A program made the translations under genes and the position numbers. Below are positions 1-57,855 of a stretch of DNA of 64,000 nucleotides, piece after piece (the stretch's first letter is position 1; each line of letters opens with the position of its first letter). Source of the DNA: a bacterium (GTDB lineage Bacteria > Bacteroidota > Ignavibacteria > Kapaibacteriales > UBA2268); the NCBI GenBank assembly GCA_024711295.1, contig JANJTB010000016.1, positions 1 to 64,000 on the forward strand, given 5' to 3'. A model generated the notes under the pieces. The model saw nothing but the letters and a program-made list of their open reading frames with translations, had not been told where the DNA came from and searched no databases.

Positions 1-1221
1 AATACTATCTCGCATGTTCAGTTTTCTCCCGATGGCTCTAAGCTGGGGGTGGTTTCTTATGATGGTAAATACGTTGGTAAATTTGTGATGTATGATGCTT
101 TAACTGGAGAAGAACTTTGGCAGTTTGGCTTAGCAACTCATTATTTTAAACAATTTTCTTATTCACTTGATGGTCAGCACATCTATGTTTTACCCCCAAG
201 TAATCTTAAAATAAGTGTTTTAAAAGTTTCTAACGGTGACTTAGTTGATACATTACCTGTAACAAAAGGAGAAAATGTAAAATTTGACTACGACCAGGTA
301 TTTCAGACTAATAATTCAAATATTCTCTTATTGAGTAACTATAATGGTTACTTTGCATTGTATGATGTAAATCAACGGAAGATTACAAAAGAAAAAGCAA
401 CAAATAGAGTAAGCAGAATAAATGCGAGTCCATACAGTGATTACTTTATATTAGCTTACCAATATGAATCTAGCAATACATGGAAAACTAAGATTAATAT
501 GTACGACATAAATACCTTAGATTATGTTGCAACCTTAGGTGAGGAAGAAGGACTTGTGGAAAACGGAGGTGAAGCCAAAATATCCTACAACGGCAAATAT
601 GCAGCAACAAATTTTGGTGGTCGAGCATTACAAATCTGGGACCTTGAGAATAAAAAATTATTTAAAGAGTATCCACCAACTATTCCAACTCAATCAACTA
701 ATGGCACAGGTGGTCAATTATCTTTAGCTTTTTGTTATGATAACGAATTATTAATAAACTGCGGAGGAAATTATTTATTTGACACAAAAGGTACTTCTAC
801 CACTATAACTAATATAGTAAATAATAAAAGAGCTTTAATGATTGACACAATGGCTGGAGCAATGAGCTTAGATGTTAATAAAAATGACAATTTAATTGCA
901 TATCCAAGGAATGGACATAATATTGTCATATATAAACTTCACAAAGATGCAGTTCCCGTAAAAGAATATTCTCAAAATTCAGAGCCAGAGATATATCCCA
1001 ATCCTGCTACCGACTACATCAATATCCAATTGAGCAACAAAGTGCTTCAGCCCTTTGCAGTGGCTGATAAAATACAAATTTTCGATATGCTAGGTATTGA
1101 AGTATTAAACGAATCAACACCGACTATGACTTCAAGTCATCGGATGAATATTGAGAAATTGGCTGCAGGTGTATATTTCATTAAAATTGGCGCTAAAGTA
1201 GAAAAGTTTTTGAAGATGTAA
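1..1221 (+). CDS. Secreted WD40-like beta-propeller protein with T9SS sorting tail (5' partial)
   Basis: The reading frame is open to the left edge of the window, so the N-terminus and signal peptide are missing; 406 residues are visible. The first residues (HVQFSPDGSKLGVV) and repeated stretches such as LSLDVN and YDVNQRK look like WD40/propeller blades. The last ~75 residues are a T9SS type A sorting domain: YPNPATDYINIQLSN, then IQIFDMLGIEV, then LAAGVYFIKIG and the terminal KVEKFLKM. The family exports such proteins across the outer membrane and removes or anchors the tail. No enzymatic motif is visible. A paralogous tail occurs in the broken gene at 56.5-57.8 kb. The substrate or partner is unknown. 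Internal GTG at 49 is not taken as the start because the frame and the repeat continue upstream. Confidence 0.85.
   Translation, partial: NTISHVQFSPDGSKLGVVSYDGKYVGKFVMYDALTGEELWQFGLATHYFKQFSYSLDGQHIYVLPPSNLKISVLKVSNGDLVDTLPVTKGENVKFDYDQVFQTNNSNILLLSNYNGYFALYDVNQRKITKEKATNRVSRINASPYSDYFILAYQYESSNTWKTKINMYDINTLDYVATLGEEEGLVENGGEAKISYNGKYAATNFGGRALQIWDLENKKLFKEYPPTIPTQSTNGTGGQLSLAFCYDNELLINCGGNYLFDTKGTSTTITNIVNNKRALMIDTMAGAMSLDVNKNDNLIAYPRNGHNIVIYKLHKDAVPVKEYSQNSEPEIYPNPATDYINIQLSNKVLQPFAVADKIQIFDMLGIEVLNESTPTMTSSHRMNIEKLAAGVYFIKIGAKVEKFLKM
1039..1056. repeat. Degenerate copy of AAAGGGC-TTCA-GCCCTTT palindrome inside coding sequence
   Basis: The sequence AAAGTGCTTCAGCCCTTT differs from the perfect palindrome at 57614-57631 by one base in the left arm. 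It lies at the same codon position of a homologous T9SS tail and encodes KVLQPF. Confidence 0.6.
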
Positions 1222-1298
1222 CATTAAGATGTGGCACATTTACAAAATTTACCAGCCCAAATAAAGTAAAAATATTGAGAAAAATTTAGAATTGCAGA

Positions 1299-52041: not shown

Positions 52042-52107
52042 AATAAAGCTCCTGTTGCCACCCAACAAAGCGACAGTCGGTATTTTTTCAAATTAATAAT
52101 TGATAAA

Positions 52108-52224
52108 TTAACAGAAGCTAAAATCCTCAACCGGTAAATCGATTTTTTTATTTATCTGCTTTATGTTGTTGTGAATATCAAGGAATAATTTTTCGATATT
52201 TTCTAAATCTTTGCCTTCAAAAAA
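52108..52224 (-). pseudogene. Truncated copy of the MqsA/YgiT-type zinc-finger antitoxin gene
   Basis: On the minus strand this frame reads FFEGKDLENIEKLFLDI then HNNIKQINKKIDLPVEDF and SFC followed by TAA, closely matching the last ~40 residues of the gene at 55417-55668 (YFEGKDLENIEKLFFDI, NNRKQVNKKIEVPVFDF). The CxxC half is missing and a stop lies just upstream in frame, so it is a decayed duplicate. Part of the DNA around 52188-52220 is almost identical to 55496-55531. The upstream 100 nt also reads VVVPPINVSVVEDF in another frame, hinting at a second antitoxin scrap. Confidence 0.75.
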
Positions 52225-55309: not shown

Positions 55310-55416
55310 AATTTTTCTCATAAGAAACTTATAATAATTATATATATACACAATTATAATATTTAAGTTACAAAGTATTTTATAATTATTTGAATTTCCC
55401 TGAATTATTTCTCAAT

Positions 55417-55668
55417 TCAACATACTTCAAAATCAAAAACCGGTACTTCAATTTTTTTATTTACTTGCTTTCTGTTATTAATAATATCAAAAAATAGCTT
55501 TTCGATATTTTCTAAATCTTTGCCTTCAAAGTACTGCTCACCACAAAATGCACAAACTTTGCTCGGCACATCATTTACAATCATAAACTTAGAATCATGC
55601 TTATAAATATACTGTACATATTTTTGTTCTAAGTTTTTATTCCCACAAAAGACACTTTTATCCTTCAT
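55417..55668 (-). CDS. YgiT/MqsA-type zinc-finger antitoxin-like protein
   Basis: An 83-residue protein starting at the ATG at 55668, supported by AAAGAGG 5 nt upstream; a start five codons earlier is less likely. It carries VFCGNK near the N-terminus and VPSKVCAFCGEQYFEG, the VPAxVCxxCGE signature of YgiT-type zinc fingers, followed by a helix-rich region (DLENIEKLFFDIINNRKQ) that resembles the dimerisation half of MqsA. One Cys of the first CxxC knuckle is absent (only FCG), so zinc binding may be weakened. The usual partner toxin (DUF4258 or MqsR) is not present. A truncated duplicate lies at 52.1 kb. Confidence 0.72.
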   Translation of the reverse strand: MKDKSVFCGNKNLEQKYVQYIYKHDSKFMIVNDVPSKVCAFCGEQYFEGKDLENIEKLFFDIINNRKQVNKKIEVPVFDFEVC

Positions 55669-56295: not shown

Positions 56296-56319
56296 GTAGA
56301 GAAATTTGTTAAGATGTGA
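56296..56319 (+). pseudogene. Orphan remnant of a T9SS 'VEKFVKM' tail
   Basis: This reads VEKFVKM followed by TGA, identical to the last seven residues of the tail at 57.8 kb. Nothing upstream in frame resembles a T9SS domain, so only the end survives. The 3' flank also aligns with that of the 57.8-kb gene (CCACACCCAAAAAGTG against CCACAACCCGAAAGTT). Confidence 0.62.
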
Positions 56320-56352: not shown

Positions 56353-56377
56353 TAGTGCCACACCCAAAAAGTGTAGC
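56353..56377. repeat. Imperfect hairpin shared by T9SS-gene 3' flanks
   Basis: GTGCCACAC and GTGTAGCAC pair with one mismatch around CCAAAAA. Related sequence follows the T9SS stop at 57.8 kb (CCACAACCCGAAAGTTTGGTGCATTTAC), and its right half appears after the T9SS stop at 1.2 kb (GTGGCACATTTACAAAA). Confidence 0.5.
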
Positions 56378-56542
56378 ACAATTTATCTAAAAATTTGTAA
56401 TTTTTACAAATCTGAAAAATAATTTAAAAAAAATGAGCAAAAAAGTGATTTTTTTCATTTTTTTTGAGACGTTTTCAAATTTGATGTGTTACTCTTAAAG
56501 TAGAAAGTTACAAATTCTAAAAAAGTTGTATAGGAAACGGAA

Positions 56543-57796
56543 ATGAAGAAATTATTAATGATGTTCATTGTATTGTTTTTTAATACTAATTGCAACCTTA
56601 AAGCAGATTATTTGTTTGCTTGGGGTTTGAATGACTACGGTCAGCTTGGAAACGGAAAAAACGAGAGAACAATTTTATATCCAATACAAATTGGATATGA
56701 TTCAACATGGGTTGATATACAATCTGGCGAAAGGTTTTCTATGGCTTTGAAAAGTGACGGTACTCTATGGGCTTGGGGTCAAAATAACTTTGGACAATTA
56801 GGTGATGGTATTCAAATTGATAAATTTATTCCATCGCAAATTGGTAAAGACAGTGATTGGCTGGAAGTTTCTTGTTGGACAGAACACGCATTAGCACTTA
56901 AAAAAGATGGTACAATGTGGGCGGTAGGAAGTAATGGTGCCGGTCAATTAGGTGATGGTACTCAAATTGATAAATGGGGATTTATTAATATTGGTAAAGG
57001 TTTCAAATGGAATAAGATTGCTGCCGGAACTTCTCATTAATTAGCTATCAGAGAAGATAGTACATTATGGTCTTGGGGCAATAATTCTTACGGCGAGCTT
57101 GGTGATAGCTCAAGAATTGGAAAATTTTATCCTACTCATATTATGACAAATAACAAATTTATTGACGTTTCTGCAGGGTGGTTTAAGTCAATTGCTATTG
57201 ACACTGGTGGGAATTTATGGTACTGGGGAAGACGACTAATATCAACAACAGACCAACCATCAGGTCAGGATGGCTTAATTCCATCTTCATATAAATCTTT
57301 AATTAATTGGTTACATGCTGAATGTGGATATTATCATGCTGTAGGAATTAAAAAGGATAATTCAATTTGGGCGTGGGGCAGAAATTGGGAAGGACAGATA
57401 GGTGATAGTACAAATAATCATCAAGGTGTACCTATCCAAATTGGTCATAATAATTTATGGACTAAAATTAATGGGAAATGGTTCTTTACACTTGCTTTAA
57501 GCAAAACTGGACAAAAAGAAACGACTTCCATAAGGGTGAATAGTGAGCATACAAATTTTATTTCAATCTATCCCAATCCTGCAGAGGATTTTATCACAAT
57601 CCAATTAAGCAACAAAGGGCTTCAGCCCTTTGCCGCAGGAGACAAAGTTCAAATATTTGATATTCTTGGGATTGAGATTATGTACGAATTAATTCATCCG
57701 ATGACTGCCAGTCATCTGATGAATGTCAAGAAGTTACTAGCAGGGGTATATTTCATCAGGGTCGGAGATAAGGTTGAGAAGTTTGTTAAGATGTAA
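56543..57796 (+). pseudogene. RCC1-repeat T9SS protein gene interrupted by an in-frame TAA
   Basis: One frame of 418 codons encodes a signal peptide (MKKLLMMFIVLFFNTNCNLKA), about six RCC1-type repeats (LFAWGLNDYGQLGNG, LWAWGQNNFGQLGDG, MWAVGSNGAGQLGDG, LWSWGNNSYGELGDS) and a T9SS tail (YPNPAEDFITIQLSN, VQIFDILGIEI, LLAGVYFIRVGDKVEKFVKM). It is broken by TAA at 57038-57040, within AGTSH-stop-LAIREDSTLW, where the repeat expects Ser; TCA to TAA is a single base change. The downstream half remains open from that point. AGGAAA precedes the ATG. A truncated 165-residue product without a T9SS tail would be exported to the periplasm at most. Confidence 0.85.
57614..57631. repeat. Perfect palindrome AAAGGGC-TTCA-GCCCTTT within a T9SS tail
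   Basis: Seven-base arms flank a 4-nt loop. The element is read through as KGLQPFA in the T9SS domain. Related copies occur at 1039-1056 (coding) and 14610-14620 (intergenic). Confidence 0.7.
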
Positions 57797-57855
57797 TCCG
57801 GTATAATTGTTCCACAACCCGAAAGTTTGGTGCATTTACAAAAATTTCTATAAAA

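Follow-up and report, generated by a model that had tools for sequence, protein, structure and literature searches.

The analysed window, a stretch of 64,000 nucleotides (C10:1–64000) of a 3.45 Mb genome in 40 contigs, encodes two T9SS type-A sorting tails on the forward strand, tail 1 at 991–1221 and tail 2 at 57566–57796, stop codons included. Both match TIGR04183 at the protein C terminus, directly before the stop codon (42.1 and 35.9 bits, respectively, with the cut-off of 23), and, judged from sequence, are T9SS type-A sorting domains, i.e., predicted export signals. Their paralogy, noticed in a preliminary description of the window, is confirmed by a gapless alignment of 231 nt with 73% DNA identity and by a search of the own genome (E 3e-33). 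The genome encodes at least 150 such domains, this number being a lower bound, since TIGR04183 scored 150 out of 222 candidates. The closest named-record matches of the tail are Bacteroidota metagenome-assembled genomes, the nearest being “Bacteroidota bacterium isolate Reactor_maxbin.046.”

The gene of tail 2 (56543–57796) has an in-frame stop codon at 57038–57040, with ORFs 56543–57040 and 57143–57796 lying in one frame; this split may reflect a decayed gene, a sequencing error or two genes. A 117-nt direct repeat with 79% identity (52105–52221 and 55414–55530) flanks a 996-codon ORF. Several contigs have sorting-tail sequence at or next to their ends (C24:10, C25:236770–236949, C30:8–169, C34:66638, C40:9066), as expected if the assembly broke at near-identical tails.

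Tail 1 and the tail at C24:3866 share 93.9% identity over 230 nt, a stretch that starts with the second tail base and reaches the stop codon, and nothing else in the two regions is aligned by blastn. Five cargos with related tails, including those of both window genes, yield no mutual blastp match at E ≤ 0.01. Tail identity without identity of cargo or flank means that a shared module exists, mostly the coding domain alone, and the earlier suggestion that one tail is common to unrelated cargos is thus supported.

The preliminary description went further and proposed that the sorting domain spreads together with a downstream hairpin, as similarity seemed to continue past the stop codon. For the two window tails, the strings in question are indeed present, starting 9 and 15 nt after the stop, but the piece common to both, CATTTACAAAA, is offset, lying 15 and 36 nt after the stop codons, respectively, and an all-against-all comparison of the downstream stretches of 145 tails gave no BLASTN match at E ≤ 0.01 for this pair. 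With five more tails added, all 150 own-genome tails with downstream DNA were then compared for near-identical pairs (at least 85% identity over at least 100 nt, reaching the stop codon). Five out of 23 such pairs have downstream similarity (E ≤ 1e-3), and 18 have no downstream BLAST match, although two of the latter agree at 14 of the 15 nt that follow the stop codon. Thus, the observation of repeated tails with a common 3′ flank is partly confirmed, and its interpretation as a cassette is partly supported: the tail plus flank is rejected as a general rule and retained as a minority form.

Two minority units cross the stop codon. One consists of the tail end, the stop codon, CATTA, and the 33-bp palindrome AGATGTCCGACACTT-NNN-AAGTGTCGGACATCT or its near-copies, and is found in C22 (two places), C23, and C28. 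The other is the tail end and stop codon followed by the CCACCCCGCCTGCT repeat, and is found in C24 (two places), C34 and C40 (in both cases at contig ends), and in the window at 2340–2424. In the window copy, a forward-strand tail-end remnant with its stop codon (2340–2374) is by eye nearly identical to the tail end at C24:1–239 and continues past the stop, so that 2340–2390 is a near-copy of C24 ~206–261; it is followed by the palindromic repeat P6, CCCCGCCTGC..GCGGGG (2390–2424), also seen downstream of other tails. A second forward-strand remnant, encoding VEKFVKM and a stop codon, lies at 56296–56319, with 56296–56317 showing 82% identity to one tail end and 91% to the other; the tail fragments reported earlier are therefore real.

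Downstream of this second remnant, a palindrome at 56355–56379, GTGCCACACCCAAAAAGTGTAGCAC, folds well as RNA (z −5.2) and resembles the palindrome, denoted P7, around a transposase gene of a related genome (locus L328, see below). A possible palindrome remnant after tail 1 (1227–1243), which is the 3′ flank of the preliminary description, contains TAACATTAAGATGT, which by eye is also present in C22, C23, and C28, there ahead of a full palindrome. After tail 2, a possible decayed palindrome (57809–57839) looks similar to P7 when the two are set side by side, and has no RNA fold signal (z 0.8). By eye, the best interpretation of the strings after both window tails is that they are left over from REP-like palindromes of a kind also found without tails, and they may come from P7 in particular.

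Palindromes also occur within both coding tails, a feature that the preliminary description did not mention; they were first met as short both-strand matches in a DNA search of the own genome. Two places are occupied. Loop 1 contains the P1 palindrome, AAAGGGCTTCAGCCCTTT in tail 2 (57614–57631; RNA fold z −3.1) and the degenerate AAAGTGCTTCAGCCCTTT, one mismatch away, in tail 1 (1039–1056). Loop 2 contains P2, ATTCATCCGATGACT-NNN-AGTCATCGGATGAAT, with the length of 33 bp or 11 codons. The tail 2 copy of P2 (57692–57724) encodes IHPMTASHLMN, has one mismatched pair, and folds as RNA better than 200 out of 200 shuffles (z −4.1), whereas that of tail 1 (1117–1149, core TATGACTTCAAGTCATC) is degenerate, and the hairpins of tail 1, both imperfect, are not exceptional as RNA compared with shuffles (z −1.3 and −1.0).

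The AlphaFold2 model of tail 2, built from 11 sequences, has six strands and mean pLDDT of 82.8. In this model, P1 encodes a part of the loop formed by residues 14–26, of which residues 17–21 are below pLDDT 50, and P2 encodes residues 43–53, namely a turn (43–48) and a strand (49–53). PDB matches of the model include T9SS CTDs 8glj_D (TM 0.71, E 0.04) and 8qb1_A (TM 0.74, E 0.01); none of the T9SS CTDs matches at E ≤ 0.001, and the best matches by E are other proteins.

In the own genome, P2 (GATGACTNNNAGTCATC, at most one mismatch) occurs at 10 places, and its reversed control at one. Of the 10, four lie in T9SS tails, in frame, and five elsewhere; the last, at C19:52242, we take by eye to be 16S rRNA and set aside as a chance match. 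Allowing two mismatches, P1 (AAAGGGCTTNAGCCCTTT) is found at seven forward places, all but one within tails; allowing three, a third family, P3 (ACCTTCNGAAGGTTTNAAACCTTCNGAAGGT), is found once, in a tail. Coding palindromes with the score of at least 10 were found in 11 of the 145 tails scanned, at loop 1 or 2 in eight of them, with several families at loop 1; those scoring about 10 in tails of C31, C7, and C11 look accidental and were not counted as elements.

At the more stringent score of 13, a palindrome is present in four out of 151 own CTDs, and, among the 124 with sufficient upstream sequence, in four CTDs and no cargo windows. Taken alone, this contrast is weak. At loci of relatives, 21 out of 54 CTDs, in a set biased towards P2, reach this score, as do 18 CTDs and no cargo windows among the 43 with cargo windows available, and a strong loop-1 palindrome is also seen in 12 out of 17 P2-containing tails, loop 1 having not been selected for. 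Hence, the case for palindromes in CTDs draws its strength from the CTDs of relatives and from the unselected loop 1 rather than from the own genome. At loci of named genomes, a palindrome of this score was found in one out of 80 CTDs (a decayed P2 in the nearest named relative) and in none of the 75 cargo windows.

Exact P2 is present in 19 out of 123 genomes of the order, all 19 belonging to the own family (54 genomes), while the reversed pattern is found in one genome; in a sample of the phylum, six out of 395 genomes have exact P2, three of them from the own family. P3 (CCTTCNGAAGGTTNNNAACCTTCNGAAGG) is present in 14 out of 54 family genomes, with none for the reversed-pattern control. Copy numbers in relatives reach 38 per genome for P2 and 56 for P3, compared with few in the own genome. 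In P2, pairing ends at 33 bp: counting outward from the core, the eighth position is paired in 70 out of 75 sites, and the ninth, in five. The seventh outer pair takes all four Watson–Crick forms and is paired in 65 out of 75 sites (shuffles: mean 35.5, maximum 45). No conserved tag, including GTAG/GTGG at the hairpin foot, was found beside P2 among these 75 sites, whereas one other loop-2 palindrome, in genome G084, has GTAG..CTAC ends.

The context of P2 was read at 75 out of 100 exact sites of the order and, together with two own variants, at 77 sites. In 17 of them P2 lies in a CTD at loop 2, read in the frame IHPMTxSHRMN in 16 (some degenerate) and as SSDDWESSDD in one. For P3, eight out of 16 fetched sites, of many more existing, are in CTDs, seven at loop 1 as PSEGxxPSEG and one at loop 2. 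P2 and other 33-bp palindromes of relatives are found in the same tail loops, in intergenic regions, on the flanks of RAYT-type genes, and in frame within some of these genes. P2 is also in frame in other proteins, including a protein that has a guanylate-cyclase domain and, separately, a histidine kinase; in the kinase, two P2 copies (G057 L274:901 and 949) are inside the stretch matched by HATPase_c. In two seemingly orthologous intergenic regions by a protease-like gene (G083 L304:901 and G084 L307:901), both genomes have P2, with different central triplets and outer bases. In G067 (L288:901), P2 lies ~20 bp after the stop codon of a sorting-tail gene whose loop 2 has a variant P2.

Comparison of orthologs shows that the palindromes differ where the surrounding genes are conserved. 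In genomes G083 and G084, two neighboring orthologous genes, A and B, have cargos that are 89.6% and 89.5% identical over the compared stretches. The loops of gene A carry P3 and P2 in G083, versus ATCAACCCTACGGTTAACCGTAGGGTTGAT and GTAGAGACAATTCATGAATTGTCTCTAC in G084; in gene B, G083 has a degenerate P3-like stretch in loop 1 (score below 13) and AGACACGGCATGCCGTGTCT, whereas G084 has the ATCAACCC palindrome, in degenerate form, and P2. The core strands that separate and follow the loops are alike, and identity in gene B extends ~30 nt beyond the stop. Similarly, in orthologs from G083 and G085, with 185 out of 188 aligned cargo bases identical (in two alignment rows), the palindrome of loop 1 differs, and loop 2 contains P2 in both. 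Paralogs show the same: at loop 2 of three neighboring tails in G070, nearly the same flanks enclose P2 in one, P3 in another, and a 9+4+9 palindrome in the third; another tail of this genome, more distantly related, has AGACATCCGATGTCT-NNN-AGACATCGGATGTCT at this place. Residues beside the loops change along with the palindrome type in the G083/G084 pair, and therefore recombination blocks can exceed the element, which speaks against a pure exchange of elements. A true ortholog with a bare loop was not found, and most of the ortholog pairs had palindromes in both members.

Entry to a transposase subfamily was provided by an ORF of G057 that has P2 at its start, inside, and at its end. This subfamily is found in 11 out of 54 family genomes, eight of which have close members (57–75% identity to the G057 protein). 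NF047646 (REP-associated tyrosine transposase) matches nine out of nine proteins (the eight close ones and that of L331) at 4e-14 or better, although eight of the nine are below its cut-off; Y1_Tnp matches on the same nine proteins are weak, three being below the cut-off. The motif HFH is invariant in eight aligned RAYT-type proteins. In the own genome, no RAYT was found at E ≤ 1e-8 with PF01797, or at E ≤ 1e-5 with the close group.

One palindrome family is present on both sides of the RAYT-type gene in 10 out of 15 distinct loci, none of them in the own genome, and arrays and pairs of palindromes surround some of the genes. At L321, L322, and L328, the gene itself also contains the flanking palindrome in frame, at a single position that is without an insert in the genes of L326 and L327. 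The flanking families include P2, P3-like palindromes, and P7 (AGATGTGCCACAC..GTGTGGCACATCT), which the window hairpin at 56355 resembles; the AGATGGACTCCACC family flanks the RAYT of G067, a genome of the same genus, and also occurs in loop 1 of an own tail, C14:16988. As for PF01797 loci in general, nine out of 30 have a palindrome with the score of at least 15, and 21 do not.

P2 or P3 is present in all eight genomes with the close RAYT subfamily, and in 14 out of 46 others (p 3e-4, kinship being ignored and P3 having been added after the first result); for P2 alone, the numbers are six out of eight and 13 out of 46 (p 0.017, kinship ignored). The link holds for the close subfamily only, as that between P2 and any Y1_Tnp transposase is not significant (p 0.15, kinship ignored).

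Taking all this into account, we consider it likely that the sorting domain is a shuffled module, and that two surface loops in some tails are encoded by REP-like palindromes linked to an atypical RAYT group, exchanged by insertion and/or short-patch recombination. Recombination between paralogous tails would move the coding domain, roughly from the PNPA motif to the stop codon, among unrelated secreted proteins, usually without downstream DNA. The palindromes occupy, in some tails, the loop that joins strands 1 and 2 and the turn from strand 3 to strand 4, presumably due to tolerance of these loops, and, as they are often 15+3+15 = 33 bp or 11 codons long, their insertion or exchange keeps the frame. 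Several palindrome families that flank, and sometimes sit inside, RAYT-type HUH transposase genes of relatives are presumably mobilized by these proteins as single-stranded hairpins; the same palindromes are also scattered through intergenic DNA. Once in a tail, a palindrome would spread with it and may be swapped for another one by short-patch recombination and/or new insertion. In the own genome, where no RAYT is detected, several of the copies are decayed. This reading explains in ordinary terms the recurrent tail ends and hairpins reported earlier.

REP elements are usually treated as extragenic, and intragenic palindromes, as probably neutral. Here, one abundant protein signal appears to have acquired REP-like palindromes time and again at two recurring positions, and the same gene carries different palindromes in sister species. 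This raises the questions of whether mobile DNA can supply interchangeable protein loops and whether such transposases replace elements in place. If our reading is true, mobile DNA can serve as ready-made protein loops. We think it unlikely that the process goes as far as a RAYT-driven, frame-preserving generator of diversity, in which 33-bp palindromes are actively replaced at two fixed places of the tail, with the transposase or single-stranded intermediates as the machinery; were this so, orthologous secreted proteins would carry combinatorially different loops in their export tails.

Among competing explanations, the one that fares best, which we regard as possible but not probable, is that only the tails recombine: a few ancestral tails would have acquired palindromes long ago and carried them along ever since as parts of tail segments, with no element entering tails today and RAYT being incidental. 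It agrees with the sharing of tails by several genes, with the co-variation of loop-adjacent residues and palindrome type, and with the lack of a detected RAYT in the own genome, but it does not explain why these palindrome families are also seen away from tails and next to RAYTs, why the three G070 paralogs differ in palindromes between near-identical flanks, and why P2 is read in two frames. A role of the hairpins in RNA, e.g., in mRNA stability or translation pausing, for which they would be kept, could be suggested by the covariation of an outer pair of P2 and by several unrelated palindromes at one place; we find it very unlikely, as 147 out of 151 own CTDs have no strong palindrome, and covariation is also expected of DNA hairpins recognized by a transposase. 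Spread of the tail and downstream hairpin as one unit is highly improbable as the general explanation, given the 18 near-identical pairs, and the window pair itself, without a downstream match and the occurrence of similar palindromes without tails; the five pairs with common downstream DNA and the units of C22, C23, and C28 and, with P6, of C24, C34, and C40 speak for its minority form. Finally, accidental hairpins of AT-rich coding DNA, which may well explain the weak palindromes of C31, C7, and C11, are refuted as the source of the strong ones by the cargo windows (0/124, 0/43, and 0/75 at the score of 13) and by the reversed patterns (none for P3, and one genome versus 19 out of 123 for P2).

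Elements of this kind have partial precedents. As outlined in PMC6006769, RAYT/REP systems (REPtrons) include an atypical Bacteroidetes subclass, 2.6, and a self-inserted one, 2.4. Like these REPtrons, the relatives' loci have a RAYT-type gene between its palindromes, with copies elsewhere in the genome; like subclass 2.4, they have in-frame palindromes within the RAYT gene; and like subclass 2.6 (YIH[QN]NP), the RAYT-type proteins of relatives contain the motif YIHQNP, although with THFH instead of NH[LIV]H. Unlike canonical GTAG REPs, P2 has no GTAG tag, and unlike REPtrons, the palindromes studied here recur in frame within a secretion sorting domain, where they occupy two places and are exchanged between orthologs. 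Intragenic REPs, as described in PMC3733652, are short palindromes lying in frame in genes, possibly as loops or linkers. They are scattered among genes that are not related, with about one site in common between the recB genes of two Xanthomonas species; in the present case, a single domain family is involved, with two places and several palindromes per place. Rickettsia palindromic elements (~150 bp; PMC10969869) are likewise in frame in protein-coding genes, as P2 is in genes of unrelated proteins, but the elements described here are typically 33 bp long, belong to Bacteroidota-like genomes, and have a RAYT beside the same palindromes.

Among the titles and abstract openings covered by a partial search of the literature on T9SS and on RAYTs of Bacteroidetes, none describes palindromes in T9SS tails. 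Thus, while REPs are already known within genes and, in frame, within RAYT genes, recurrent swappable palindromes of an export signal were not encountered in the literature searched and are apparently new. The host domain is the same as the known T9SS type-A CTD (TIGR04183), and what distinguishes the tails considered here is that two of its loops are encoded by palindromic elements differing between orthologs.
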